Shown: positions 16,322 to 37,521 of the stretch, piece by piece
Position numbering within the stretch: position 1 is the first letter of the stretch
Layout: each line of letters starts with the position of its first letter
From: Nitrosococcus halophilus Nc 4
GTDB lineage: Bacteria; Pseudomonadota; Gammaproteobacteria; Nitrosococcales; Nitrosococcaceae
Reading direction: 5' to 3'
Assembly: GCF_000024725.1 (NCBI RefSeq)
Contig: NC_013960.1
Location: 2,032,001-2,096,000, forward strand
DNA length: 64,000 nucleotides
Made by a program: the position numbers and the translations under genes
Notes under the pieces: model-generated
Database searches by the model: none
What the model saw: the letters and a program-made list of their open reading frames with translations, nothing else
Told to the model about the DNA's origin: nothing

Positions 16322-16591
16322 TTAGGTAAATAAGTTTGCATCCAACCGGGCATTCTGGTTCAGCGTGGGACTGATGTTGGGAGCAAACAAGCCAAAGTTG
16401 GAAACATTATTAGCCGCGTTGATATTCAGGGATTGGAACTGATTAATCTCCTGATTTAGATCGATATCAACGGCCACATTGGCAAAACTCAAGCCGGGAA
16501 GCCCGAGGGCTTTACCGCCCCGCAGGGTGGTCATCTGCCGGGAGTCCAGGGTTTTACTTTCAGCTAAATCGGCAATGGTAATGGACGTCAT
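16322..16591 (-). CDS. Double-glycine-leader Asn-rich small protein, divergent copy 1a
   Basis: An 89-aa protein with the family leader SITIADLAESKTLD ending in LRGG at residue 26. Hydrophobic residues at -4 (Leu), -7 (Met) and -12 (Leu) before the cleavage point match double-glycine leaders cut by peptidase-containing ABC transporters. The remaining 63 residues lack cysteine and are rich in Asn, with a NNVSNFG motif shared with the other copies. A strong ribosome-binding site (AAAGGAGGAAAG) precedes the ATG. It is the most divergent member and lies 65 bases after copy 1b, probably as the second gene of one transcript. No transporter is in the window. A secreted bacteriocin-like or aggregating matrix protein is an inference. 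Confidence 0.75.
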   Translation of the reverse strand: MTSITIADLAESKTLDSRQMTTLRGGKALGLPGLSFANVAVDIDLNQEINQFQSLNINAANNVSNFGLFAPNISPTLNQNARLDANLFT

Positions 16592-17048: not shown

Positions 17049-17386
17049 AGTGGGTAGTTGAGGGGGTGTGATATTATTAAGATTATGATTTAAAAGGTAT
17101 TATATTTTTACTCCGGGATATGCCTGACGACTCACTGGAAGAGGGATGTTTAGAAAGTTGGCTTGATGGCAACAATAAAGACGAGGTGTTTGTTGGCGAG
17201 TTGCTTTTGTGGATAAAGCATAAAGAAAAACGGAAAGGTGTTGTGGGTGGGGGATTAGGGGGAAGTAAGTACCCGCCTCTTGGAGGGGGGCTTACTTATC
17301 CATGACAATCCCCAAGAGATTGGTATAACTTGTTGTTGTTATTAGGTAATTAAGACCATATTGAGTAAAGTATCAACTTCTTATAG

Positions 17387-17484
17387 CTATAGCGTTTCCC
17401 AAAGAGGAGAGATACGGTTGGATTGAGAACTTAAGGCCCGACTAAGTCGATATTCGTATCTCATTTATTCGGGAAACGCTATAG
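17387..17484. repeat. 98-bp MITE inside upstream repeat, copy 1
   Basis: Terminal inverted repeats CTATAGCGTTTCCC and GGGAAACGCTATAG bound 98 bases; a TA within the ends would fit IS630-type targeting. An essentially identical copy lies at 28618-28715 in the same position of the second repeat unit, so it was present before that unit was duplicated. Confidence 0.75.
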
Positions 17485-17564
17485 AAAGTTTCTGTTATAA
17501 AGTAGATTTTTTATATCTATCCTATGCTTGGCAATCCCCCAAAACCAGAAAAGCAGATCAATCA

Positions 17565-26199: not shown

Positions 26200-27720
26200 T
26201 TAGCCTAGGTTTAGGATGGGGATGTGGCTCTTGGGGTCAGTGGCTGTGATGGCAGTTCACTAGACTTGAAATGCCGTTCCCGTCCTCCTGCGTCATCCGG
26301 TGGGTCGTTCGGGATGGTGCCGATTTTAGATTGTGGCTCTGTAGGTAGACGAGACCGACGGATGATTTTTTTCGGTTTAATCTGACCTTATGGAGAGCAC
26401 AATTTTATGACGGTAGCGGCGCAGATCCGTGTGAGTGTAGATATCGGTTGCCCTCAGCACAGCATTGCGATTGGTTTAGCTGGCGGCGAGGTGCTGGAAG
26501 AATTTGATATTCTCCACCGCCCGGAAGGGTTCAAACAGTTTTTTGAACGCATCGAGCCTCATTGCCAACGCCATGGCGGGGAGGTGGCGGTGGCGATGGA
26601 GGGATACAACGGTTTTGCCAGACCTTTGGATAGCTTGATAAGGGTTCGAGGCTATCCACTTTACCACATCAATAATCTAAAGCTGGCCCGGTTCAAGGAG
26701 ATCTTTCCCGCGGCGGCCAAAAGCGATCGTATCGATGCCCGTAAGGGCTTAGAGCTGTTTCAGCTGCGAGATCACCTGGCGGTGGCCAAGGACGTGCTCC
26801 AAGAGGTCATGCCCACGCCGCAGGAGAACGATAAGCTCAAACGTCTTAGCCGCCGGCGCCGCGCCTTGGTGGAGGAGAAAACCCGCGTGTTGAGCCGCCT
26901 GCAAAGTGATCTGCAGGCCGTTTGCCCAGGCCTTCTGGCCATCACTCAGGAGGCCGAAAACCTCTGGTTTTTGCGCTTTCTCACCTGCTCAACAGAGCTG
27001 ACCAAACTCTCACGCCTGCGTCCCTCCACCCTGATGAAGATCCCCGGCGTGGGACGCCAATACGCTTCGATTATCCAACAATGGCAGAAAAATGCCTCAT
27101 TTAGCCATGAAGTGGACTGGGTGGGCGAGATGATCATTGAAGATGCCCGACGCATTTTGGATCTCAGGGACAAAATCAAAGCGCTAGAAGCACGCTGTAA
27201 GGCGGTGATGAATCACTCCACGATCGCCCCCTTGACCGACTCCATTCCAGGGTTTGCTCTCGTTTGTTCCTCGGAGCTGGCCGGCGAAATTGGCACCATT
27301 GACCGCTTTGCTAGCGAGCGTAGCCTAGCCCTTTATCTGGGCATGGCCAATCTCGATCATAGCTCTGGAAAATTCCACGGTTCAAAGGCGCCCAAGCACG
27401 TCAATAAACGGGCTAAAGGCGCCATGATGACCGGGGTGGATAGGCATCGCAAGTGTGTGCCCGAATCACAACGTTACTATGAAAAAAAACGGGCAGAAGG
27501 CAAATCTCATAACCAGGCCATCCGCGCACTTGGACGACAACTCTGCCGTATTATATTCAAAATGCTCAAACAGAATCGAGCTTATGAAATTCGATCATCA
27601 ACGGACGTATAGGCTTGAAAATTCCAGCGGGATGTTCAGGTCTTGTATAATGCTTTAGTGGGTAGGTTTAATTTGGCGTATTGTCCTTGAGCTATCACTT
27701 AAAATGCCGACGTTTGGGAC
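26200..27720 (+). mobile_element. IS110-family insertion sequence, boundaries approximate
   Basis: A single IS110-type transposase gene with a long non-coding leader (about 270 bases between hsdR and the start). IS110 elements have no terminal inverted repeats, so the ends cannot be placed from sequence alone. The leader is the expected location of the structured bridge RNA in the IS110 subgroup. Confidence 0.6.
26407..27612 (+). CDS. IS110-family transposase
   Basis: A 401-aa DEDD-type recombinase. The N-terminal RuvC-like domain has VSVDIGCPQHSIAIG, a central Glu region (AMEGYNG) and SDRIDARKGLELF. The C-terminal Tnp domain has IPGFALVCSSELAGEIG with the candidate catalytic serine, then FASERSLALYLGMANL. 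Such proteins recombine DNA under guidance of an element-encoded bridge RNA. Length and motifs are complete, so the element may be active. It lies just after the restriction operon and separates it from the second peptide locus. Confidence 0.93.
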   Translation: MTVAAQIRVSVDIGCPQHSIAIGLAGGEVLEEFDILHRPEGFKQFFERIEPHCQRHGGEVAVAMEGYNGFARPLDSLIRVRGYPLYHINNLKLARFKEIFPAAAKSDRIDARKGLELFQLRDHLAVAKDVLQEVMPTPQENDKLKRLSRRRRALVEEKTRVLSRLQSDLQAVCPGLLAITQEAENLWFLRFLTCSTELTKLSRLRPSTLMKIPGVGRQYASIIQQWQKNASFSHEVDWVGEMIIEDARRILDLRDKIKALEARCKAVMNHSTIAPLTDSIPGFALVCSSELAGEIGTIDRFASERSLALYLGMANLDHSSGKFHGSKAPKHVNKRAKGAMMTGVDRHRKCVPESQRYYEKKRAEGKSHNQAIRALGRQLCRIIFKMLKQNRAYEIRSSTDV

Positions 27721-27828
27721 AGATTTTCGCCTTATCATTGCTCTTTTGGGATTAAGAAATTATTCCCCAAAGTGGATATTGGTGAGGTGGTAGAGGTTAC
27801 TGTATCAGGTTTTTCCCCCTCATCCTCG

Positions 27829-27852
27829 CCTTCTCCCGCCAGGGGAGAAGGG
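27829..27852. repeat. Palindromic repeat CTTCTCCC/GGGAGAAG, copy 2
   Basis: CCTTCTCCCGCCAGGGGAGAAGGG lies 24 bases beyond the 3' end of peptide copy 2. It is followed by GGAGGGAAGGGAACACTGAA, which is also kept at copies 3 and 4. Confidence 0.75.
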
Positions 27853-27875
27853 AGGGAAGGGAACACTGAAAGGGA

Positions 27876-28166
27876 TTAGACGATAAACCCACCTACATTG
27901 ACATTGTTCTGAGCATGTTGGTTCTGGGTGTTGGTGTTGTGCACATTAGCAACCCCGAAGTTGGCGACGTTATTGCCCACGGCATTTTCAAGGCCCTGGA
28001 ACTGAGAAATCGCCTGAGTGGGATTTACCTGGGTGAACCGATCTCCCATGGGTCCCCAGTAAAGACTCCGGCTCTCAAAGGCACGCATACCGCCGCATAT
28101 GGAAGTCATAGCAGTAGAGTCGAGGGTTTTGCTCTCGGCCAAGTCAGCGATAACGAGTTTGCTCAT
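27876..28166 (-). CDS. Double-glycine-leader Asn/Gln-rich small protein, copy 2
   Basis: A 96-aa protein with leader SKLVIADLAESKTLDSTAM and cleavage motif ICGG instead of VRGG. The 70-residue remainder (from MRAFESRSLYWGPMG) has about 12 Asn and 7 Gln and no cysteine, and ends NVNVGGFIV. The frame extends to 28205, but AAAGGAGA ahead of the ATG at 28166 and the conserved leader decide the start. It is nearly identical at DNA level to copy 4, a recent duplicate. A sigma-54 promoter lies at 28255-28270. Export by a peptidase-containing ABC transporter is inferred from the leader; none is in the window. Confidence 0.8.
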   Translation of the reverse strand: MSKLVIADLAESKTLDSTAMTSICGGMRAFESRSLYWGPMGDRFTQVNPTQAISQFQGLENAVGNNVANFGVANVHNTNTQNQHAQNNVNVGGFIV

Positions 28167-28222
28167 GGGTGTGTTCTCCTTTGAATTGAATGTTGGGTTG
28201 TTCATTAAACTTCAAATTTGGA

Positions 28223-28239
28223 ACCGAAAATTTTTCGGT
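28223..28239 (-). promoter_or_regulatory. 5'-leader hairpin of peptide copy 2
   Basis: ACCGAAAA-A-TTTTCGGT, the counterpart of the hairpin at 17000-17017. The differences from copy 1 keep the stem paired. Confidence 0.5.
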
Positions 28240-28254
28240 GCTTGCCCAACAGAT

Positions 28255-28270
28255 TGCAGCTCCCGTGCCA
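28255..28270 (-). promoter_or_regulatory. Sigma-54 -24/-12 promoter of peptide copy 2
   Basis: The minus strand reads TGGCAC-GGGAG-CTGCA, with the same spacing and single mismatch as copy 1 and a changed N5 spacer. Conservation of the two contact boxes but not the spacer supports function. Confidence 0.75.
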
Positions 28271-28617
28271 AGTAGGGGGTTGACGGGGGGTGTGATGTTT
28301 TAAGGTTATAATTTGAAAGATATTATATTTTCTCTACAGGGCATTCCTGACGACTTAAAGGGAGAGGGATGTTTAAAAAGTTGGTTTAATAGCAACAATA
28401 AAAACAGGGTGTTTGTTGGAAGGTTGCTCTTGGGGTAAAAGGTAAAGAAAAATGGAAAGGGGTTATGGGTGTGGGATTACAAGGAGGTAAGTGCCCGCCT
28501 CTTGGAGGGGGGCTTACTTATCCATGACAATCCCCAAGAAATTGGGGTTTTATCTATAACTTGTTGTTGTTACTGGATAACTAAGACCATATTGAATAAA
28601 GTATCAACTTCTTATAG

Positions 28618-28715
28618 CTATAGCGTTTCCCAAAGAGGAGAGATACGGTTGGATTGAGAACTTAAGGCCCGACTAAGTCGATATTCGTATCTCATTTATT
28701 CGGGAAACGCTATAG
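28618..28715. repeat. 98-bp MITE inside upstream repeat, copy 2
   Basis: Same ends (CTATAGCGTTTCCC ... GGGAAACGCTATAG), length and interior as the copy at 17387-17484. It was copied along with the surrounding unit. Confidence 0.75.
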
Positions 28716-28767
28716 AAAGTTTCTGTTATAAAGTAGAATTTTTATATCTACCCGATGTTAGCTGAAT

Positions 28768-29763
28768 ATGAAATCGAGATCACGAAACTTAGCTGATAAA
28801 TCGATTGATGCCATGCTGGCAGCAATTGAGATATATAATAAGCCAAGCTTTGCATACCGTGAGGAGTCATTTTCCATTCTTGCCATAAACGCATGGGAAT
28901 TATTGCTGAAGGCCAGAATATTGCAGCTATCTAACAACAAGGTAAGCTCAATACTTAAGTATGAAAAACGCCAAAAAGCTGGCGGAAGCCTTTCCGAGAA
29001 AAAGTACCGGGTAAAGAACAGATCGGGGACTAATCTGTCCATTGGTTTGTTTCGCGCGATAGATATGTTAGAGGCAGAGTATGGAGACAAAGTGGGGGCT
29101 CAAGTTAGGAAGAATATCGAACTGCTATGTGAGGTAAGAGATAGTGCTGTTCACTTTGTTAACAAAGGCTTCGATTTAACCCTGTTAGTACAACAACTTG
29201 GTACCGCATGCCTGCGTAACTACATAATCGTTATTCGCCGATGGTTCGCAATTGATTTATCTAAGTACAACTTTTTCCTAATGCCTCTAGCCTTTTTCGG
29301 CCTAGAGGCGAACGTGCAGGGAGTCTCGCTTAATTCAGAGGAAAAACGCCTCTCAGAATATTTAAAGCAAGAAACTAATGTTAGTAATGGCGGAGATCCT
29401 GATGAGTTCAATGTCGCATTAACAGTGAATGTTCGGTTTACCAAATCTAAATCCGAGGATGCTGAACTAGTTTGTGTTTCAAATGACCCAGATGCAACCC
29501 CAATAAAACTAACAGAAGAAGATATTAGGGAAAAATACCCGTGGGATTACAAAATCCTTACCACAAGGCTTCGCAAACGCTACAGCGATTTTAAGGAAAA
29601 CAAAAAATACCATGACTTGCGGAAGCCTTTAGAGTCGGAGCCGAAATATTGTAACAAGCGTTTTCTCGACCCAGCTCAAAAAAATGGTATTGGGAAGTGT
29701 TTTTACAACCCAAATATCGTAAAAGAATTCGATGCTCACTATACAAAAGCAGCTAGCAAGTAG
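28768..29763 (+). CDS. DUF3644 HEPN-like protein in an integron cassette
   Basis: A 331-aa protein whose first half matches DUF3644: SFSILAINAWELLLKARIL (about residues 31-49), then CEVRDSAVHF (about 122-131). RDSAVH fits the R-x4-H motif of HEPN ribonucleases. The C-terminal part (YPWDYKILTTRLRKRYSDF, then KYHDLRKPLES) resembles the helix-turn-helix-like tail common in these proteins. The ATG lies 5 bases after a GTTAGCT core site, and the stop lies within the attC site, so the gene is a cassette. A nucleic-acid-targeting defence or toxin role is inferred from HEPN relatives; no antitoxin partner is adjacent. Confidence 0.82.
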   Translation: MKSRSRNLADKSIDAMLAAIEIYNKPSFAYREESFSILAINAWELLLKARILQLSNNKVSSILKYEKRQKAGGSLSEKKYRVKNRSGTNLSIGLFRAIDMLEAEYGDKVGAQVRKNIELLCEVRDSAVHFVNKGFDLTLLVQQLGTACLRNYIIVIRRWFAIDLSKYNFFLMPLAFFGLEANVQGVSLNSEEKRLSEYLKQETNVSNGGDPDEFNVALTVNVRFTKSKSEDAELVCVSNDPDATPIKLTEEDIREKYPWDYKILTTRLRKRYSDFKENKKYHDLRKPLESEPKYCNKRFLDPAQKNGIGKCFYNPNIVKEFDAHYTKAASK

Positions 29764-29833
29764 CTCAGGGCCAGCAAAAAGCGCTGTTCGTTCCTTGCTC
29801 TGCTTTTTGCTGCCCCTGAGCATGACGTTAGAT
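29751..29833 (+). other. attC recombination site of cassette 1
   Basis: R'' box AGCTAGC (29751-29757) and R' core GTTAGAT (29827-29833) bracket an imperfect palindrome. Its arms GCTCAGGGCCAGCAAAAAGC and GCTTTTTGCTGCCCCTGAGC pair at 19 of 20 positions. The R'' box differs by one base from the complement of GTTAGCT at the left end of the cassette (28757-28763). This is the architecture of integron attC sites. Confidence 0.85.
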
Positions 29834-29850
29834 TTTTTGAGAGCTATCAA

Positions 29851-30303
29851 ATGACATCTTTTGCAGTTAAACATATAGAAGAAAAACATGGTGCTTTGTC
29901 TTCAGTATTAAAAAATGCAAAAAAGCAACCTTACTCCTTAACAAGTAAAGAGTATGAAGCGCATGAGGCAGCAAAAGGGCGTTTTGTGTATGTTATTGAA
30001 GTACTGCGAGTAAAAGGAGATACAATCTATCTACTAGGATATAAATACAAAGCACGCACAGTATTGGCAGCGCCAGGAGTCGCTTTGTGGCGAGGTAAGT
30101 TTAAGTATAAAAATTCTGTAGAGTACGGAATTCCCTCGGAAGGGTTGTATTTTGATAAACCTGTATTAATAACAGATACCGGATTTATTGACTGGTTTAA
30201 AGGAGAAACTTTTGGTATGGCTGCAATTCCGGTGGCTCACGTGAAGACTCTAGAAACATTATTCAAAGATCCATCAAATTATGCAAAAAAGTTCAAAATC
30301 TAA
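29851..30303 (+). CDS. Unknown 150-aa protein in an integron cassette
   Basis: A mostly soluble, Lys-rich protein (SSVLKNAKKQPYSLTSKEYEA, then RFVYVIEVLRVKGDTIYLLG, later LITDTGFIDWFKGE). No family was recognised and no transmembrane or signal segment is seen. It starts 18 bases after a GTTAGAT core site, and its TAA stop lies inside the matching ATCTAAC box of the next attC, a perfect 7-base complement. The cassette context is therefore clear although the function is not. Low GC compared with core genes fits transfer. Confidence 0.75.
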   Translation: MTSFAVKHIEEKHGALSSVLKNAKKQPYSLTSKEYEAHEAAKGRFVYVIEVLRVKGDTIYLLGYKYKARTVLAAPGVALWRGKFKYKNSVEYGIPSEGLYFDKPVLITDTGFIDWFKGETFGMAAIPVAHVKTLETLFKDPSNYAKKFKI

Positions 30304-30357
30304 CCATGGGCATCCAGTTGATGCTCGCTATCGCTCGCACAACTGAGCCCAGACGTT
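30298..30357 (+). other. attC recombination site of cassette 2, core split by a MITE
   Basis: The site starts ATCTAAC (30298-30304) and has arms GGGCATCCAGTTG and CAACTGAGCCC around a short loop. It reaches GTT at 30355-30357. There a 109-bp MITE interrupts the core; beyond it GTTAGGT (30467-30473) completes a consensus GTTRRRY core. ATCTAAC is the exact complement of the GTTAGAT at the left end of the cassette. Confidence 0.85.
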
Positions 30358-30466
30358 GAGGTTGTAGAAAAAGCCCCTGAGGCATGAGATCATGCATTCT
30401 AACCCATTGATTTCTCATTTGTGAAATCACTAAAAATGGAACATTTTAGGGTTTTTCTACAGCCTC
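30358..30466. repeat. MITE inserted in the attC2 core
   Basis: 109 bp with terminal inverted repeats GAGGTTGTAGAAAAAGCCC and the complement of GAGGCTGTAGAAAAACCCT, flanked by GTT on both sides. Removing it and one GTT restores CAGACGTTAGGTGC, a perfect attC core. Confidence 0.75.
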
Positions 30467-30525
30467 GTTAGGTGCAGCAGTAGGGCCGAGATACATTTAA
30501 TAAGTTGACTATGCGAGGTTTTGCC

Positions 30526-30756
30526 ATGAAGTCCGAGATTGAAGAAATTGCCGAAAAAGCTCTTAATCTCCCATTACCTGCTAGAGCGTCTTTAGCGGAA
30601 CTACTGCTAGAAAGTCTGGATTATGAAGAGGATTTTCTGATTTCAGATGAGTGGATGAACGAAATTCAGAAACGCTGCCGTGAAATAGATGAAGGAAAGG
30701 TAAAACTCATATCAGCAGAAGACGCCTTGGCCCAGCTTCAGAAAAAATATTCATGA
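30526..30756 (+). CDS. Addiction-module antitoxin, TIGR02574-like
   Basis: A 76-aa acidic helical protein (KSEIEEIAEKALNLPLPARA, then LAELLLESLD and ISDEWMNEIQKRCREIDEGK). The pattern is that of antitoxins annotated as putative addiction-module components paired with RelE/ParE toxins. The frame extends to a TTG at 30505, but the ATG at 30526 follows GAGG at good spacing. The stop overlaps the toxin start (ATGA). The gene sits at the start of cassette 3, after GTTAGGT. Since the toxin is interrupted, the antitoxin is now probably an orphan. Confidence 0.8.
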   Translation: MKSEIEEIAEKALNLPLPARASLAELLLESLDYEEDFLISDEWMNEIQKRCREIDEGKVKLISAEDALAQLQKKYS

Positions 30757-30969
30757 AACCCTGCTGGTTTCATCCGGAAGCGCTCGCAGAGGCCGATGAG
30801 GCGGTTGCGTTCTATAAAGAGCAACAGCCTGCTCTTGAGGTACGCTTTCTGGAAGCGTTGAACGACACGATTTCCCGAATAAGGAGAAACCCATAAATTA
30901 CACCGCGCGGGGAGTGCCGACTTTAGGCGGCAGAGGAAGCGCGGCCCTCCGTTTGGTTGTTGCTAGTAT

Positions 30970-31392
30970 ATGTCTGCCGGTCGTATAATTAATGGCATGT
31001 CTCGTTACGCCAAGAATTCTGGGGCGGTTTTCGCTCTCAAATATCACTTGGTCTGGTGCCCCAAATACCGTCGCAGCGTGTTGGTTGATGGCGTCGCTAA
31101 ACGTCTTGATCAGTTGATACGCGAAGTCGCAAACGAATTTGAAATGACAGTGCATGCGATGGAGATCATGCCGGACCACGTACACCTGTTCGTCGAATCC
31201 GACCCTCGCTGGTGCGTTGCCGAGATAGTCAATCGCTTTAAAGGTCGAAGCAGTCGTATCTTGCGTTCCGAATTTCCAGTTTTGCGTAGCCGTTTGCCGA
31301 CCCTCTGGAGTCGCAGTTACTACGCTGGCACGGTGGGCCACGTATCCGAAGAGAGCGTTCGCCGCTACATTGAAAACCAAACGGGAAAGTAG
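30970..31392 (+). CDS. tnpA: IS200/IS605 transposase TnpA (Y1 HUH)
   Basis: A 140-aa HUH single-strand transposase. The metal-binding histidines are in MPDHVHLFVES and the nucleophilic tyrosine is in the C-terminal RRYIENQ. The core VFALKYHLVWCPKYRRSVL is typical. It excises and inserts the element as a circular single strand at hairpin ends. The frame opens at 30970; an internal ATG (MSRYAKNSG) may be the true start. tnpB begins directly after its stop. Confidence 0.92.
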   Translation: MSAGRIINGMSRYAKNSGAVFALKYHLVWCPKYRRSVLVDGVAKRLDQLIREVANEFEMTVHAMEIMPDHVHLFVESDPRWCVAEIVNRFKGRSSRILRSEFPVLRSRLPTLWSRSYYAGTVGHVSEESVRRYIENQTGK

Positions 31393-32514
31393 TTGATTAA
31401 AGCATTCAAATACCGACTGTATCCGAACACCGCCCAGGTGCGTGAGCTTGAGATCATGCTTGAAACGCACCGACGCCTGTATAACGAGTGTCTTGCTCAA
31501 CGAAAAGAGCGCTACGAAACAGCTCAAGAAAGCGTGAAGTACACGCAGCAATCGGCTTGGTTTAAATCCGCCCGCGGCGCGAACGACTGGTACGCTAGGC
31601 TCAATTTCTCCTCTGCCCAGGCAACGATGCGGCGCCTCGACAAGGCGTTTCAGGCATTTTTTCGGCGCATTAAGACAGGCGATAAACCCGGTTATCCGCG
31701 CTTCAAGGCGCGTGGTCGCTTCGATAGCTGGACATACCCGGCGCACGGCGACGGCGCGCGGTTGCTCGATGGCAAACTGCGCCTTCAGCACATTGGCGTG
31801 GTTAGGGTACGCCAACATCGCCCTGCGCAAGGCACGATCAAAACCGTACAGATCAAGATTGAAGCCGGAAAGTGGTTCGTCATCGCCAGTTGCGAAATCG
31901 GTGATGCGCCACCGCCTCGGACTGAAGATACGGCTGTCGGTATTGATATTGGATTGGAGCATTTCCTGTCCACCGATCAAGGCGAGCAGGTCGATAATCC
32001 GCGCTACCAAAAAGAAGCATTGCGCCGGCTGCGCGTTGTTGGGCGCGCTGTTTCGCGTAAGAAAAAAGGCAGCCGAAACCGAGGTAAAGCGGTTTCCAAG
32101 CTGCGCTCGATACACGCCCGAGTGTCCAACAAAAGACGGGACCACCACCACAAGGTGGCCCGCGATTTCGTGAGTCGATACGCTTTCATCGCGGCGGAAA
32201 GCCTGACCGTAAAAAACATGGTCAGGAACCGCCGATTGAGTCGGTCGATTTCGGATGCTGGCTGGAGCCAGTTTCTGAACATACTCCGTGCCAAGGCTGA
32301 AAGCGCCGGGTCGGTGTTTGTCGAAGTTCCTCCGCAAGGCACATCGCAAGCGTGCTCCGGCTGCGGAGCAGTCGTGCGAAAGGCGCTCTCCGTGCGCCAG
32401 CACAGATGCCCCGAATGCGGTTTGTCTCTGCAAAGAGATGTCAACGCGGCCAGAAATATCTTGGCGCGTGGCCAGGCTCGGATGGAGCCTGTGTGGCTTA
32501 ACGTGGCGCATTAG
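31393..32514 (+). CDS. tnpB: RNA-guided nuclease TnpB
   Basis: A 373-aa TnpB, the ancestor-type nuclease of Cas12. RuvC residues are visible as GIDIGLEHF (Asp), FIAAESLTVKNM (Glu) and LQRDVNAARNI (Asp). The zinc ribbon CSGCG...CPECG lies between the last two. The start is a TTG immediately after the tnpA stop (MIKAFKYRLYPN). All key residues are present, so it may be active. Its guide RNA would come from the 3' end of the gene and the right end of the element, with the guide reading into the interrupted parE gene. Confidence 0.92.
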   Translation: MIKAFKYRLYPNTAQVRELEIMLETHRRLYNECLAQRKERYETAQESVKYTQQSAWFKSARGANDWYARLNFSSAQATMRRLDKAFQAFFRRIKTGDKPGYPRFKARGRFDSWTYPAHGDGARLLDGKLRLQHIGVVRVRQHRPAQGTIKTVQIKIEAGKWFVIASCEIGDAPPPRTEDTAVGIDIGLEHFLSTDQGEQVDNPRYQKEALRRLRVVGRAVSRKKKGSRNRGKAVSKLRSIHARVSNKRRDHHHKVARDFVSRYAFIAAESLTVKNMVRNRRLSRSISDAGWSQFLNILRAKAESAGSVFVEVPPQGTSQACSGCGAVVRKALSVRQHRCPECGLSLQRDVNAARNILARGQARMEPVWLNVAH

Positions 32515-32671
32515 CGCGAGCGTGCCGCAAGAAGCCGTCTGCTTTTGCTGACGGTTCATCACTGATCTATCGTCGCATCGAAGGGGAAGTAAGGAAATGT
32601 CGGATACTGCGCTTTCCCTATGGCGTCATATACCGCGTCAGCAATGATCGCATAGAAGTCATACCATTTCT

Positions 32672-33232
32672 TTAAATATTTGCATGCTTTAAAGCGGAGA
32701 GGATAAAGGGGTAACCGGTTAAAGAACGAATCGTTTGTGGAATGAGGTCCTGGAGGATTTCCCCGACAGTCTGTCGAAGGGAGTCCAGTGTGCTAAAGAG
32801 AACCCAACTGAGCTGATCTTTCATGTGTTGCCAAAGTCGCTCGATAGGGTTGAGCTCGGGGCTATAGGGAGGCTGGAACATCAGCACGATATTCTCAGGC
32901 AACTCCAGCTTCTTGGCCCAATGAGAGCTGGCATTATCAAGTTGAACGATATGCAGAGCGTGGGGATAGCGTTGAGCGAGGTGATCCAAATAAATCTGAA
33001 AACAGTCGCTATCGTGATGAGAGAACTCCAAAAAGAAGCTTTCCCCGCTCAGCGGCTCCACTGCCCCATAGAGATAGAAGGCTTTAAATTGCCATTGCAC
33101 CGGCGCTAGGGGCTTGGTGCCGGTCAACGTAATCAGTCGCCGAGGGATGGTTTTAAGCCCAAAGCGCGTCTCATCGTAACACCAATACCGCACCGGTAAA
33201 GCGGGGTCTTCCGCCCCGTAGAGGACCGGCAA
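32672..33232 (-). CDS. IS630-family transposase, C-terminal DDE part
   Basis: A DDE domain with YDETRFGLKTIPRR (first Asp), HIVQLDNASSH (second Asp) and the family signature PPYSPELNPIERLWQHMK (Glu). It has no good start of its own (TTG). Upstream of it the same frame reads TLKKLPRRLEVLPVLYG through an A7 run, continuing the protein begun by the 33171-33773 gene. It is therefore the second half of one transposase made by frameshifting, or disabled by a one-base change. Confidence 0.88.
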   Translation of the reverse strand: MPVLYGAEDPALPVRYWCYDETRFGLKTIPRRLITLTGTKPLAPVQWQFKAFYLYGAVEPLSGESFFLEFSHHDSDCFQIYLDHLAQRYPHALHIVQLDNASSHWAKKLELPENIVLMFQPPYSPELNPIERLWQHMKDQLSWVLFSTLDSLRQTVGEILQDLIPQTIRSLTGYPFILSALKHANI

Positions 33233-33773
33233 AACTTCTAGGCGCCGCGGGAGTTTTTTTAAAGTCCACCCCCGCCGCTTCCTCTCGATGAAGGTGGCTC
33301 GGGCGCGCCACTTTGAGCTTGGCTTTGAGCCGGTAACGTACTGTCTGATGTACCGTTTTGTACTTAATCTGCAACCCGTATTCTTCCCTCAGCCACTGTT
33401 GAATCGCCCCATAGCTCTTAAAACCCGGCGGTTCTTTCAAACGCTGCTTTAAGGCCTGCTCCACCGCCGGCGGTATAGCTCGGGCACGCCCATTATGCGC
33501 CGTCCCAAGCTCAAGCAAGCCTACTAACCCGCGGGCCCGATACCCCTCAAACCAGCGATAAAGGGTGGAGGGATTGCGCCCTAGCACTTTCCCCAAAGCT
33601 TTGAGTTCGGTGACCTGCTCGCTCTTGAGCAAATATAACGCCTGAACTCGTTCTTTGAGTTTCACCTCGCTCTGCTGGTGAAGCAGCGCTTTTAATTCCT
33701 CGGCACTCTCCGTGATTTCTAGCTCTAGGCGGCGACTCATCAACCTCGCTCCTCCCCATAAACTCGCTTTCAA
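33171..33773 (-). CDS. IS630-family transposase, N-terminal DNA-binding part
   Basis: A 200-aa protein whose first 140 residues are two helix-turn-helix units of IS630 transposases (LKALGKVLGRNPSTLYRWFEG, then GAIQQWLREEYGLQIKYKTV). The frame passes TTTAAAAAAACT near 33255 and then runs on in the wrong frame (KTPAAPRSFAGPLRG) to a stop. A one-base slip at the A7 run would join it to the DDE half. The start is probably an internal ATG at MSRRLELEITES. Confidence 0.85.
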   Translation of the reverse strand: MKASLWGGARLMSRRLELEITESAEELKALLHQQSEVKLKERVQALYLLKSEQVTELKALGKVLGRNPSTLYRWFEGYRARGLVGLLELGTAHNGRARAIPPAVEQALKQRLKEPPGFKSYGAIQQWLREEYGLQIKYKTVHQTVRYRLKAKLKVARPSHLHREEAAGVDFKKTPAAPRSFAGPLRGGRPRFTGAVLVLR

Positions 33774-33863
33774 ACCTCCTCATTATAACATGCGGGGTCA
33801 GTACGAATTGGTATCATTGCGGTCATGCATCTTAGGCAGCGGCCGGGTTATTGGAAATCACGC

Positions 33864-33915
33864 ACCTAACTCGGCGCTCAATTCGGATGCCTCCTTCGTC
33901 GGCGCTGGTAGTGAT
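33864..33915 (+). other. attC recombination site of cassette 3, right half lost
   Basis: ACCTAAC (33864-33870) is the exact complement of GTTAGGT at the left end of cassette 3 (30467-30473). It is followed by TCGGCGCTCAATTCGGATGCC, a typical L'' arm, and a partly complementary GGCGC. No GTTRRRY core follows before the peptide-locus repeat begins at about 33935, so the right half appears deleted. Confidence 0.65.
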
Positions 33916-33944
33916 AGATCCTTCCATCATTCCCCCTTATCCTC

Positions 33945-33968
33945 CCTTCTCCCGCCAGGGGAGAAGGG
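33945..33968. repeat. Palindromic repeat CTTCTCCC/GGGAGAAG, copy 3
   Basis: Identical to the copy at 27829-27852, and followed by the same sequence up to the peptide stop codon (GATTAGACGAT). Confidence 0.75.
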
Positions 33969-33991
33969 AGGGAAGGGAACACTGAAAGGGA

Positions 33992-34215
33992 TTAGACGAT
34001 TTTGGAACCGAAAATTTTTCGGTGCTTGCCCAACAGGTTGCAGCTCCCGTGCCAAGTAGGTGATCGAGAAGGGGGTGGGTTGGTTAAGTTATGATTTAAT
34101 AAAGATTATATCTTATTTCAAGATATTTCTTCCTCACTTAATGGAAGAGGGATGTTTAGAAAGTTGGTTTGATGGCAACAATAAAGGCGGGATGTTTGTT
34201 GAGTGGTAGCTTTTT
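33992..34215 (-). pseudogene. Deletion scar of a peptide gene with flanks retained
   Basis: The 3' end of the peptide gene (ATTAGACGAT, ending at 34000) is joined directly to TTTGGAACCG, which in copies 1 and 2 lies upstream of the start codon. About 330 bases, including the whole coding region and its ribosome-binding site, are missing. The leader hairpin (34007-34023), the sigma-54 promoter (34039-34054) and about 160 bases of the upstream repeat remain. It is a fifth locus of the family that has lost its gene cleanly. Confidence 0.8.
34039..34054 (-). promoter_or_regulatory. Sigma-54 -24/-12 promoter retained at the deletion scar
   Basis: The minus strand reads TGGCAC-GGGAG-CTGCA, as at copy 2. 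With the peptide gene deleted it would drive transcription towards attC3 and the parE remnants. Confidence 0.65.
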
Positions 34216-34262
34216 AATGGGAGTGAATTTCATCGTTATACAGCAGGTCGACTAGACAAATC

Positions 34263-34700
34263 ATGAAGAAACAAACACGGGAATTTCTCTTGAAGGAATA
34301 CTCGCACTTACGGGGTGAGGTCTTGGAAACCTTGAAAGAGATACCCGCTAACGAGAAGTGGGCCTTAGTGACTAGCGGTGTGTTTTGGGCTTGGTTGGCG
34401 GCGTTTCCGGATCGCGGAAGCTTTATCCCTGCCGCCGCGTGGGTTCCTGTTGTGCTGACTTTTTTGCTGTTCCTTCGCTGGCGTGCCATAGAGAGAAAAT
34501 TTGAAACATACAGGACATATCTATTACGGCTAGAAACTGCGTTCGAGTTAGAAGGGTTTGGCTGGGAGTACCATATCCAAAGTGCAGGAAAACATGAGTT
34601 TCGATATTACGGCTGGGGATTTTGGTGCCTTCTATTTGCTGGAAATGTCTTTCTCGCTATTTGGGCAAGCTGTCATGTCGAGGAGGCAGGTTTTGCCTAG
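34263..34700 (+). CDS. Small membrane protein, unknown function
   Basis: A 145-aa protein with a basic N-terminus (KKQTREFLLKEYSHLRGEVL), a first membrane hairpin about residues 35-75 (WALVTSGVFWAWLAAF and AAWVPVVLTFLLFLRW), and a last membrane helix near FWCLLFAGNVFLAIWASC. No family was recognised. A GTTATAC-like site at 34233 precedes it, but no matching box follows, so it is not called a cassette. It lies between the deletion scar and a broken acetyltransferase gene. Confidence 0.65.
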   Translation: MKKQTREFLLKEYSHLRGEVLETLKEIPANEKWALVTSGVFWAWLAAFPDRGSFIPAAAWVPVVLTFLLFLRWRAIERKFETYRTYLLRLETAFELEGFGWEYHIQSAGKHEFRYYGWGFWCLLFAGNVFLAIWASCHVEEAGFA

Positions 34701-34751
34701 TAGTATGCTCTAAGGCTGCTGTGGAGTTTTATCGTTGGTCTCGAAAACCAT

Positions 34752-35085
34752 GAACATCATTTACGCTCACGACCTGAAGCTAGGGGCCTGGGTGTAGGGC
34801 ACCTCTAAAAATCCAAAAACTCGGAGACTTTTTTCTCATAAGTAGTTGATTTAATGAGCACCAGAATTTTAAAAAAGCAATTTTTAGAGGTGCCCTGTAG
34901 GCAAACAGCTCGCTATGCGGCTTGTTGAAGAAGGGGTATGCCTAGGCTATTCTGCTATGTTGCTTGACACACTAGAAAGACTGAAAGCGGCTATAGTCCT
35001 CTATGAGTCGATTGGATTTGTCCCAACGAAGCCATACTACCAGAATCCACTTCCGGGTGTGCTGTATTGGAAGCTAGAGCTGTGA
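34752..35085 (+). pseudogene. GNAT acetyltransferase remnant interrupted by a MITE
   Basis: Acetyl-CoA-binding motif A is visible as RPEARGLGVG before 34796 and KQLAMRLVEEG after 34900. Then come MLLDTLERLKAAIVLYESIG and the typical end NPLPGVLYWKLEL. A 99-bp MITE lies inside motif A, and the N-terminal half of the gene is not recognisable upstream. The protein cannot be made. Its stop overlaps the SelW-like gene start (GTGA), so the two were once coupled. Confidence 0.78.
34797..34895. repeat. MITE inside the GNAT remnant
   Basis: 99 bp with terminal inverted repeats GGGCACCTCTAAAAAT and ATTTTTAGAGGTGCCC, flanked by TGTA on both sides (34793-34796 and 34896-34899). Removing it and one TGTA restores the acetyltransferase frame. 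Confidence 0.8.
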
Positions 35086-35378
35086 GGAAAAATAATAAAG
35101 TCGAAATTCGCTACTGCACTCAATGCCGTTGGCTGCTGCGGGCCGCTTGGATGGCCCAGGAGCTATTAACCACTTTCGATCAAGAAATTTCAGAACTAAC
35201 GTTACGGCCCGTAACGGGTGGCGTTTTCGAGATACTGGCAAACGGCAAGCTCATTTGGTCACGGAAAGAAGCGGGGCGTTTTCCTGAAATTACCGAGCTC
35301 AAGCAACTGGTTCGAGACCAAATCGCTCCCGATAAGGATCTCGGCCATGCAGATAGGAAAGGTTCGCAATCCCATTGA
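35082..35378 (+). CDS. SelT/SelW/SelH-family (Rdx) protein
   Basis: A 98-aa thioredoxin-like protein with the CxxC redox motif in IRYCTQCRWLLRAAWMAQEL near the N-terminus and the family end GRFPEITELKQLVRDQIAPD. In eukaryotic relatives one cysteine is selenocysteine; here both are ordinary Cys codons. The GTG at 35082 overlaps the stop of the broken acetyltransferase gene. Earlier in-frame codons belong to that gene's end. It may act in thiol redox control; substrates are unknown. Confidence 0.85.
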   Translation: MRKNNKVEIRYCTQCRWLLRAAWMAQELLTTFDQEISELTLRPVTGGVFEILANGKLIWSRKEAGRFPEITELKQLVRDQIAPDKDLGHADRKGSQSH

Positions 35379-35463
35379 GCTAGGGTTCGTGTGCTGCCCC
35401 TACATTACACGCTCCTACCCTTACATCAGATTTTCCCCTCATCTTCCCTTCTCCCGCTAGGGG

Positions 35464-36772
35464 CTGAGGTATAGACGGATAAAAGGGAATTGTTTAATTA
35501 AGAAACAAGTGGTTGCAAGAATAGAAGGAGTAGACAGGCACGGAGACATCTGATCTCATACGGGTCACGATTAAAAACCGAAGAGAGGTTGTTCCCGTGC
35601 CTGTGAAAAAGATCTTACACCGGATGTTGTCGGAGATCATGCATTTAAAACGCTTGTGGACGTTGGTGTTGTTGGTGGAGACGGTCTTGGAGACGAAGCG
35701 GTTATCGGTAACCCAACTGGGTCGGTCATTGAAGTTACCGATTCAAGAGCGCAGTGGGATACGGCGGTCGGACCGATTTATGGGGAATAAGTACGTCCAA
35801 GCCCAAAGCAAAGCGGTGTATGAGGCGTTAGTCAAGCAGCTGGTGGGAAACAAACGGCGGCCGTGGATACTGGTAGATTGGAGTCATCTACCGAACACAG
35901 ACTTGTATGTATTGCGGGCAGCATTAGTGGCGCCGGGACGGGCGTTGACCCTGTATGAGACGGTCCATGCGCAATCGCAGCAGGGGAATGAGCGCGTGCA
36001 GCGAGCTTTTTTAAAGACGCTCAAGGCGTTGTTACCGGCGGCGAGTCGGCCCGTGATTATCACGGACGCCGGATTTCATAACCCCTGGTTTAAGCAAATT
36101 GTGAGTTATGGCTGGGATTACGTAGGCCGGATCCGGGGGCGAAAATCCTACCGACCGGTGGGGGAGCGGGAATGGCGGCCCTGCCGAGAATTATGGGCGC
36201 AAGCCAGTGGCCGAGCGAAGGCACTCGGAGCGGTAGAGATGTGTCGTAAGAACCCGTTAAAGAGTAGGTTCTATTTGTTCAAAGGAAAAGCCCGGGGTCG
36301 GCATGGCAAGTCGATAGCCGAATACCGTCTGGCGGCGAAGGAGCCGTGGTTGTTGGCCAGCTCCTTGTGCGGTCGTCAATCGGCCAAGCGCGTGGTGAAA
36401 CTCTATCGTACGCGGATGCAGATTGAAGAAGGGTTCCGGGATTTGAAAAGTCCAGCCTATGGCTTCAGTTTTAATCTGGCCTATAGTCGTGACCCGCACC
36501 GCATTGAGGTGTTGCTGTTGATTGCGGCTTTGGCAGGCATGGTGGCCTGGGCCGTGGGTTGGCTGACAGAGCGGCAACAATTACATTATCAGTTTCAGGC
36601 CAATTCGATAAAACATCGGCGCGTGCTCTCTCTATTCTATCTAGGCTGCCAAGTAATTCGACGAAAAGTAGGGGTAATCGTAAGTGAACAAAGTCTCCGT
36701 GAGGTTTTCGATGCTATCGAAAATGAAGGATGCCCCCCATGAAACAGGGCTGTTTATGCGTCTATCCTACAG
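35464..36772 (+). mobile_element. IS4-family insertion sequence with 9-bp target duplication
   Basis: 1309 bp. Ends are CTGAGGTATAGACGGATAAA at the left and the complement of CTGTAGGATAGACGCATAAA at the right. CGCTAGGGG is duplicated at 35455-35463 and 36773-36781. The target is the CTTCTCCC palindrome downstream of peptide copy 4, which is now split in two. Confidence 0.9.
35597..36742 (+). CDS. IS4-family transposase
   Basis: A 381-aa DDE transposase. Visible are WILVDWSHLPN (first Asp), VIITDAGFHNPWF (second Asp), and YRTRMQIEEGFRDLK, the Y-(2)-R-(3)-E-(6)-K signature of the IS4 family. The gene is complete and the element has intact ends with a clean duplication, so it was probably acquired recently and may still be active. 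Confidence 0.93.
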   Translation: MPVKKILHRMLSEIMHLKRLWTLVLLVETVLETKRLSVTQLGRSLKLPIQERSGIRRSDRFMGNKYVQAQSKAVYEALVKQLVGNKRRPWILVDWSHLPNTDLYVLRAALVAPGRALTLYETVHAQSQQGNERVQRAFLKTLKALLPAASRPVIITDAGFHNPWFKQIVSYGWDYVGRIRGRKSYRPVGEREWRPCRELWAQASGRAKALGAVEMCRKNPLKSRFYLFKGKARGRHGKSIAEYRLAAKEPWLLASSLCGRQSAKRVVKLYRTRMQIEEGFRDLKSPAYGFSFNLAYSRDPHRIEVLLLIAALAGMVAWAVGWLTERQQLHYQFQANSIKHRRVLSLFYLGCQVIRRKVGVIVSEQSLREVFDAIENEGCPP

Positions 36773-36811
36773 CGCTAGGGGAGAAGGGAGGGAAGGGAAC
36801 ACTGAAGGGGA

Positions 36812-37102
36812 TTAGACGATAAACCCGCCTACATTTACATTGTTCTGAGCATGTTGGTTCTGGGTGTTGGTGTTGTGCACATTAGCGACCCCGAAGTTAG
36901 CCACGTTATTGCCCACGGCATTTTCAAGGCCCTGGAACTGAGAAATCGCCTGAGTGGGATTTACCTGGGTGAACCAATCCCCCATGGGTCCCCAGTAAAG
37001 GCTCCGGCTCTCAAAGGCCCGCATACCGCCGCGGACGGAAGTCATAGCAGTAGGGTCGAGGGTTTTGCTCTCGGCCAAGTCAGCGATAACGAGTTTGCTC
37101 AT
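36812..37102 (-). CDS. Double-glycine-leader Asn/Gln-rich small protein, copy 4
   Basis: A 96-aa protein nearly identical to copy 2; it has VRGG at the cleavage site and a Trp in place of Arg in the GDRF segment. The frame extends to 37141, but AAAGGAGA and the conserved leader place the start at 37102. Upstream homology stops at about 37152, before the leader hairpin and sigma-54 promoter. This copy has therefore lost the family promoter. Its downstream palindrome is split by the IS4 element. It may be silent or use another promoter. Confidence 0.78.
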   Translation of the reverse strand: MSKLVIADLAESKTLDPTAMTSVRGGMRAFESRSLYWGPMGDWFTQVNPTQAISQFQGLENAVGNNVANFGVANVHNTNTQNQHAQNNVNVGGFIV

Positions 37103-37224
37103 GGGTGTGTTCTCCTTTAAATTGAAAGTTGGGTTGTTCATTAAGCTTTAAATAAAGATGGCATTTTTTCAGTATTCAGTAAAAATCTATAAAAATCATA
37201 GTTCGGTTAAAGGGGGATCAGGTA

Positions 37225-37521
37225 ATGGCATTTAGTGAAGCGTTGGTTCAAGCAGTGTGGGAACAGAAAAGTCGAGTCGTTTCCGATCAGGACCCCAATC
37301 TGTGGCGAAAGGATGAATGTGGCGCCTGGGTACGGCGCGACCACTATGGAAATCGCGATTCAGAATTTGGCTGGGAGATTGATTACATCACTCCGGGGGG
37401 GCCCGAGGAGCCCGCTAACCTCCGGGTGTTGCAATGGGAAAACTATGTCGCCGGTGGGGTCGGCCATGTGGTGTGTAAAATTACTGCCGATAGGGGTGGG
37501 ATAAAAAATAGGCCGGCTTAA
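37225..37521 (+). CDS. HNH-like small protein with degenerate catalytic site
   Basis: A 98-aa protein with the layout of small HNH-type proteins: DPNLWRKDECGAWVRRDHYG, GNRDSEFGWEIDYITPGG, and NLRVLQWENYVAGG. In functional HNH nucleases the segment after WEID normally has His (WEIDHI); here it is Tyr, and the final N/H position is also altered. It may be inactive or serve only for binding. GGGGGATCAGGTA ahead of the ATG provides a ribosome-binding site. It is divergent from peptide copy 4. Confidence 0.65.
   Translation: MAFSEALVQAVWEQKSRVVSDQDPNLWRKDECGAWVRRDHYGNRDSEFGWEIDYITPGGPEEPANLRVLQWENYVAGGVGHVVCKITADRGGIKNRPA

Follow-up and report, generated by a model that had tools for sequence, protein, structure and literature searches.

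Peptides with a double-glycine leader form a class exported by ABC transporters that carry a C39 peptidase, and sigma-54 promoters—marked by GG at −24 and GC at −12 with a fixed spacing—form another when they work with distant, enhancer-type activator sites. A third well-known pattern is the loss of a gene by illegitimate deletion after duplication. The locus described here, at 34.0 kb of a window of 64,000 nucleotides (contig C2, positions 2032001–2096000) in the two-contig, 4.15-Mb genome of Nitrosococcus halophilus Nc 4, can be compared with each of them. As in the first class, the leader of the peptide family concerned is of the GG type, and a C39 peptidase occurs in both congeners that bear the family; these peptides differ in having no confident domain match and an asparagine/glutamine-rich C-terminal half, and their export is a prediction. 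As in the second class, a TTGGCAC-N6-TGC element is preceded by a dyad, a candidate activator site, some 145 nt upstream. The resemblance to the third pattern lies in the near-identical flanks of a second copy, a blunt joint, a remnant of the gene end, mobile elements and a separate loss in the sister species; here, in contrast, the promoter, the activator site and the leader hairpin were left intact. We consider the locus to be, probably, a decayed and redundant member of a peptide-gene family with sigma-54 type promoters. In the sister species this gene was lost by another route, and the event therefore looks like routine decay of a redundant copy and not like a novel mechanism.

Distribution and features of the peptide family

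The genome of N. halophilus (G000) encodes seven full members of the family—three in the window, at 16.66, 27.88 and 36.81 kb (loci 0, 1 and 2), and four elsewhere—together with diverged second genes. The congener G003, which we take to be N. wardiae and which is available as a single contig, has six full members plus a further one, at 1516 kb, that is cut down to 68 codons; comparisons were made with one assembly per species. The congeners G001 and G002 gave no family match, which leaves the family in two of the four congeners searched (G000 and G003). A search of 20 genomes returned three matches, namely the genome itself, G003 and a weak one in G018 (E = 0.007), and a contig scan, which may omit the window's own or near genomes, confirmed no relative outside the genus. 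A profile search of 369 genomes of the class matched G000 and G213, the latter through four weak matches that mostly cover the leader, with one extending over positions 4–66; G003 is not among the genomes shown for that search.

The 13 full members that were aligned, a set that leaves out the truncated G003 peptide and the diverged second genes, are 94–96 amino acids long, and 47 of the 97 alignment columns are invariant. They share a leader-like segment of the double-glycine type, MSKLxIADLAESKTLDxxAMTSVRGG, and a conserved, asparagine/glutamine-rich C-terminal half. The GG motif follows the conserved leader in 11 of the 13 members; GE or GD replaces it in two G003 peptides, L087 (1057 kb) and L091 (2767 kb), and the locus 1 peptide reads SICGG, whereas R precedes the glycine in the other 12. 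The two members scanned gave no confident Pfam or NCBIfam match. C39 peptidase domains were found twice in G000 and three times in G003 (two of these being adjacent pieces), with none in G001 or G002, and also in 8 of 14 control genomes; the co-occurrence across the four congeners thus hints faintly that the products may be exported as leader peptides. Additionally, a second, diverged peptide with a GG-leader-like start (16334–16591) follows the first gene of locus 0, with similar diverged second genes in G003 as well as at 160 and 812 kb, and other short proteins in the two genomes (L011, L013 and L060) combine a similar leader, IKDL...LDxKAM...GG, with different tails. A literature search limited to titles and the openings of abstracts found nothing on the family, which is uncharacterised.

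The deletion joint at 34.0 kb

The deletion is defined by the following features:

33945–34000, minus strand: D1, the downstream repeat together with the final 11 nt of the locus of the lost gene; it occupies the corresponding place in G003, the sister genome
33992–34000, minus strand: remnant of the lost gene, comprising its final two sense codons and the stop codon (ATC GTC TAA in sense orientation), from the sequence and comparison with intact copies
34000–34001, no strand: blunt joint of the deletion, where 332 bases are absent when counted against the 27.8-kb copy, from a cut-placement test
27876–28166, minus strand: intact peptide gene of locus 1, whose flanks come closest to those of the lost gene, with its promoter at 28256–28271 (open reading frame, family and promoter pattern)
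28555–28757, no strand: far-upstream DNA of locus 1, also present in the locus 0 flank 17324–17526 (96% over 203 nt), with an inverted-repeat element

At 34000/34001, the end of a peptide gene (its nine last coding bases plus the downstream repeat) abuts the upstream block of that same gene. Compared with the intact 27.8-kb gene, the left side is identical at 56/56 positions (33945–34000 against 27829–27884, the 3′ end and downstream repeat) and the right side at 59/60 (34001–34060 against 28217–28276, the upstream block), which bears out the original prediction that a gene end had been fused to its own upstream region. In a genome-wide DNA search, the two halves matched the 27.8-kb locus as separate pieces (E = 4.5e-27 for the left and 9.8e-46 for the right); both flanks of the missing gene are therefore present and colinear with the intact copy, as in a deletion remnant. 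Measured on that copy, 332 bases are absent, in line with the ~330 first estimated. Only one of the 13 cut placements tried (−6 to +6) reproduces the joint, which is thus blunt and without microhomology. This agrees with the earlier remark that no long direct repeat is seen here: we found no direct-repeat microhomology at the joint, a feature that deletion remnants often show but need not have, and the longest word common to the breakpoint regions (±25 nt) measures 6 nt and lies off the cut.

The deletion is gene-sized, yet neither end coincides with a functional boundary. The ribosome-binding site and the start codon are gone, as had been proposed, but the description of a loss restricted to coding region and ribosome-binding site holds only in part, since two codons and the stop were kept and the right cut lies inside the 5′ leader, at the foot of the leader hairpin and ~50 nt before the start codon.

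The orphan promoter block and its possible transcript

Upstream of the joint, three predicted elements were left behind, and transposase genes lie downstream:

34007–34023, minus strand: 5′ hairpin of the predicted transcript, from folding, with +1 near 34028 as placed from the −12 element
34040–34055, minus strand: sigma-54 type −24/−12 element TTGGCACGGGAGCTGC, from the promoter pattern
34176–34201, minus strand: predicted upstream activator site, a CAACA...TGTTG dyad 147 nt before the −24 element, from the dyad pattern; intact in the sister remnant too
32672–33773, minus strand: transposase open reading frames with HTH_32 and DDE_3 domains, downstream of the orphan promoter and on the same strand, from a domain search; presumably of the IS630 type

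In sense order, the block thus runs from the predicted dyad CAACAAACATCCCGCCTTTATTGTTG to TTGGCACGGGAGCTGC and on to the hairpin near the predicted 5′ end. The element has GG and GC at −24 and −12 at the fixed spacing. As far as the letters go, hairpin and promoter were indeed left intact as first proposed. A search pattern joining the promoter to the leader start matched seven times in N. halophilus, eight times in G003 and never in G001 or G002, with no match in any of the four genomes when the pattern was read backwards. All seven matches in N. halophilus are family promoters by position, and six of them have a gene; the orphan is the only one without. In G003, seven of the eight precede a family gene (one of these truncated), and the eighth, at 1877513, has no family match nearby. 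A leader hairpin was predicted at all 14 family promoters folded, being weak (−2.1 kcal/mol) at the 1057-kb promoter of G003. As a raw count without a chance control, the strict dyad pattern detects the upstream site in 10 of the 14, including the orphan, and misses it in four.

A short sigma-54 RNA from the orphan promoter is possible. The predicted transcript from 34028 to 33775 holds short frames only, the longest ATG-start frame having 32 codons behind a purine-rich stretch and no marks of a gene. Its predicted fold is strong (−53.2 kcal/mol, z = −4.98); this strength comes mainly from a dispersed palindromic repeat and is hence not an RNA-specific signal. A small-RNA gene would be recognized by a promoter and a terminator conserved in relatives, and here no terminator-like site occurs within 33700–34300, while the sister remnant lacks the −24/−12 element, so that such an RNA would not be conserved. 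A known RNA at this place was rejected, as no Rfam match reached the gathering score within 27700–37400. The suggestion that the locus now makes nothing but a short sigma-54 RNA may hold in view of the complete promoter sequence, and finds no backing in the terminator, conservation and Rfam comparisons.

The palindromic repeat in question, CCTTCTCCC-GCC-AGGGGAGAAGG, occupies 33930–34000 and occurs elsewhere in the genome (more than 20 of 33 matches in a genome-wide search), directly after family peptide genes at several loci. A further repeat of ~100 bp at 34796–34895, with terminal inverted repeats discerned by eye, has matches at 458, 1017 and 3359 kb.

The same locus in the sister genome

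Alignment of the window with G003 (2874001–2916000) revealed a colinear stretch, with gaps, from 2965 to 26147; the gene on the colinear side contains domains of a type I restriction R subunit (HsdR), and the gene beside the locus has an Rdx (SelT/SelW-type) domain. In G003, the repeat (2892687–2892601) is followed by ~15 nt more of gene 3′ end, reaching 2892586, then by a block matching 34105–34213 and directly thereafter by the Rdx gene region matching 34973–35398. The sister species is therefore also without a gene at this locus, having kept ~15 extra bases of the gene end as well as the activator site, and having lost the −24/−12 element and the leader. Since G003 retains gene 3′ end, repeat and distal upstream block between the same neighbours, HsdR and Rdx, a gene must have been present here in the ancestor. 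Positional identity is further supported by the word GCTACCAC beside the dyad, which the orphan block and the G003 remnant share and which is found in none of the other 13 family blocks. The two deletions differ in their ends and cannot represent one event without later repair.

These observations leave the loss of a gene at 34.0 kb well supported, with a different remnant in the same place in G003. The further idea that so precise a deletion signals selection for loss finds no support: a single blunt deletion is uninformative in this respect, its cuts lie off functional boundaries, and the sister deletion, with other ends, takes the promoter away.

The intact copy at 27.8 kb and probable redundancy

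Locus 1 matches the orphan through the repeat, the gene-end remnant, the leader start and the promoter. Its far-upstream part, by contrast, is shared with locus 0. Within that part, an inverted-repeat element of ~98 bp, MITE-like in appearance, is the same at 17324–17526 and 28555–28757 and absent from the matching place of the G003 locus 0; because of this distribution, part of the locus 1 flank must have been duplicated after the species split. Locus 1 may thus best be read as a chimera formed after that split. Since both sides of the joint are nearly identical to an intact copy 6 kb away, and since part of the flank of that copy was duplicated after the split, the lost copy was probably redundant; the simplest assumption would be that it was almost identical to the 27.8-kb gene and dispensable. 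Against a simple decay reading, the activator block of locus 1 is unlike the orphan type and not closest to locus 0 (69% identity to the orphan, 79% to locus 0 and 83% to the 812-kb copy). As this block fits neither parent well, the history must have been more tangled than one crossover. Moreover, a simple tandem duplication would need a further loss, because nothing resembling a second HsdR copy turned up from 28.6 to 33.4 kb in the window alignment with G003.

A promoterless family gene at 36.8 kb

A third copy in the window bears on how the gene was lost:

36812–37102, minus strand: peptide gene of locus 2, intact but lacking a family promoter; the homology upstream of it stops at 37153
37153–37154, no strand: joint of the locus 2 gene with DNA that lies elsewhere in the sister (Y; contig C1 of G003, 2444407), from genome comparison
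35464–36772, plus strand: IS4-family element of 1309 bp, with CGCTAGGGG as its 9-bp target repeat, lying within the downstream repeat of locus 2, from the sequence and transposase NF033591

The locus 2 gene keeps its reading frame intact, with 13 differences from the locus 1 gene over 291 positions. Pattern searches yielded no family promoter for it, and the 398 nt before its start contain no loose TGG-N9-11-GC match. Its downstream repeat (D2), which the IS4-family element has split, differs from D1 at 2 of 48 positions and, further left, at 4 of 32; given the 56/56 identity, D1 shares more recent ancestry with locus 1 than with locus 2. From ~37176 rightward, the DNA matches G003 from 2444407 onward (91%), and part of the G003 DNA to the right of the Rdx gene sits at 3.24 Mb in N. 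halophilus. Because right-hand DNA thus lies elsewhere in each genome relative to the other, a rearrangement joint must fall between the Rdx gene and 37176, with the locus 2 gene and its downstream repeat caught in between. In terms of the ancestral unit, the cut at locus 2 and the orphan cut share one base, AAA|TTT. Within 26.4–36.8 kb there are four transposase loci (IS110, IS200/IS605, DDE_3 type and IS4), and the IS4-family element has six further copies, ~99% identical, in the genome.

Proposed evolutionary scenario and alternative explanations

Under the decay reading, the ancestor of both species would have carried, between the HsdR and the Rdx genes, a unit ordered as repeat, peptide gene, sigma-54 promoter and activator site. 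A recent duplication in N. halophilus, through recombination of neighbouring family loci, would have given rise to the second, near-identical copy at 27.8 kb; the original copy would then have suffered an illegitimate deletion of 332 bases, one that needed no homology and reached from close to the stop codon as far as the base of the leader hairpin. The order of these events, redundancy as the reason why the loss was tolerated and a promoter that may still fire are what we infer. Should it fire, it would produce a leader-hairpin RNA running through the palindromic repeat and possibly into the downstream transposase gene. Decay is favoured by the truncated 68-codon member of G003, which is another damaged family locus, and by the transposase loci nearby. 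This reading leaves the coincidence of the cut shared with 37153 unexplained; one guess is that the adjacent hairpin marks a breakage-prone site.

That same coincidence is an argument for an unlikely alternative in which the gene was displaced rather than lost, the promoterless copy at 36812–37102 being the missing gene itself, split off from its promoter when a rearrangement fused the Rdx side with Y and took up the repeat-gene piece as filler. The homology upstream of locus 2 ends in AAA(T) exactly where the orphan block begins with TTT, and the 35.4–37.2 kb segment does span a rearrangement joint, with Y elsewhere in G003 and DNA right of the G003 Rdx gene partly at 3.24 Mb in N. halophilus. 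However, the locus 2 piece brings its own downstream repeat, which is unlike D1 at the positions counted above, whereas D1 stayed in place and is identical to that of locus 1; a one-step move of the gene to 36.8 kb loses weight accordingly, and the joint to Y may be due to a short TTAAAT-like word. An assembly error, or an independent insertion of the promoter-proximal repeat, is the least credible of the explanations considered, with very little probability left to it: the family is repetitive and has near-identical copies within 10 kb, but locus-specific features are found on the joined halves, and in the single-contig sister genome the same locus is likewise gene-less and retains the distal upstream block. 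Insertion of the promoter block in particular appears unlikely and was rejected, as the block, the repeat and the gene end stand in the same place in G003.

It is also quite improbable that the gene-less locus was kept for regulation, either as an activator decoy or to give rise to a short, stable hairpin RNA. Upstream of the transcription start, the predicted elements are complete, and across the activator dyad and its neighbouring motif the orphan and the G003 remnant agree at 29 of 29 positions, against 53 of 88 outside, where the last few alignment columns pass the joint of the remnant itself and slightly inflate the mismatches. Nevertheless, the motif positions were picked after the alignment and its conservation had been viewed, the conservation may predate the losses, and a functional ortholog pair is similar inside the motif (28/29, with 72/89 outside); the RNA is neither conserved in the promoterless sister remnant nor matched in Rfam.

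Implications for the family

With decay of a spare copy as the preferred reading, the single event is ordinary. A bolder proposal, to which we assign a very low probability, is that gene-less family loci would serve as activator decoys that tune the supply of activator to the remaining peptide promoters, with the orphan also emitting a stable hairpin leader RNA; it draws on the separate deletion of the gene in two species and on the enhancer dyad left intact in both. The value of the locus lies instead in a natural experiment in which promoter, leader and coding region stand apart on a single chromosome—a gene-less sigma-54 type promoter, complete with predicted activator site and leader hairpin, near an intact copy with near-identical flanks, together with a promoterless gene of the same family.
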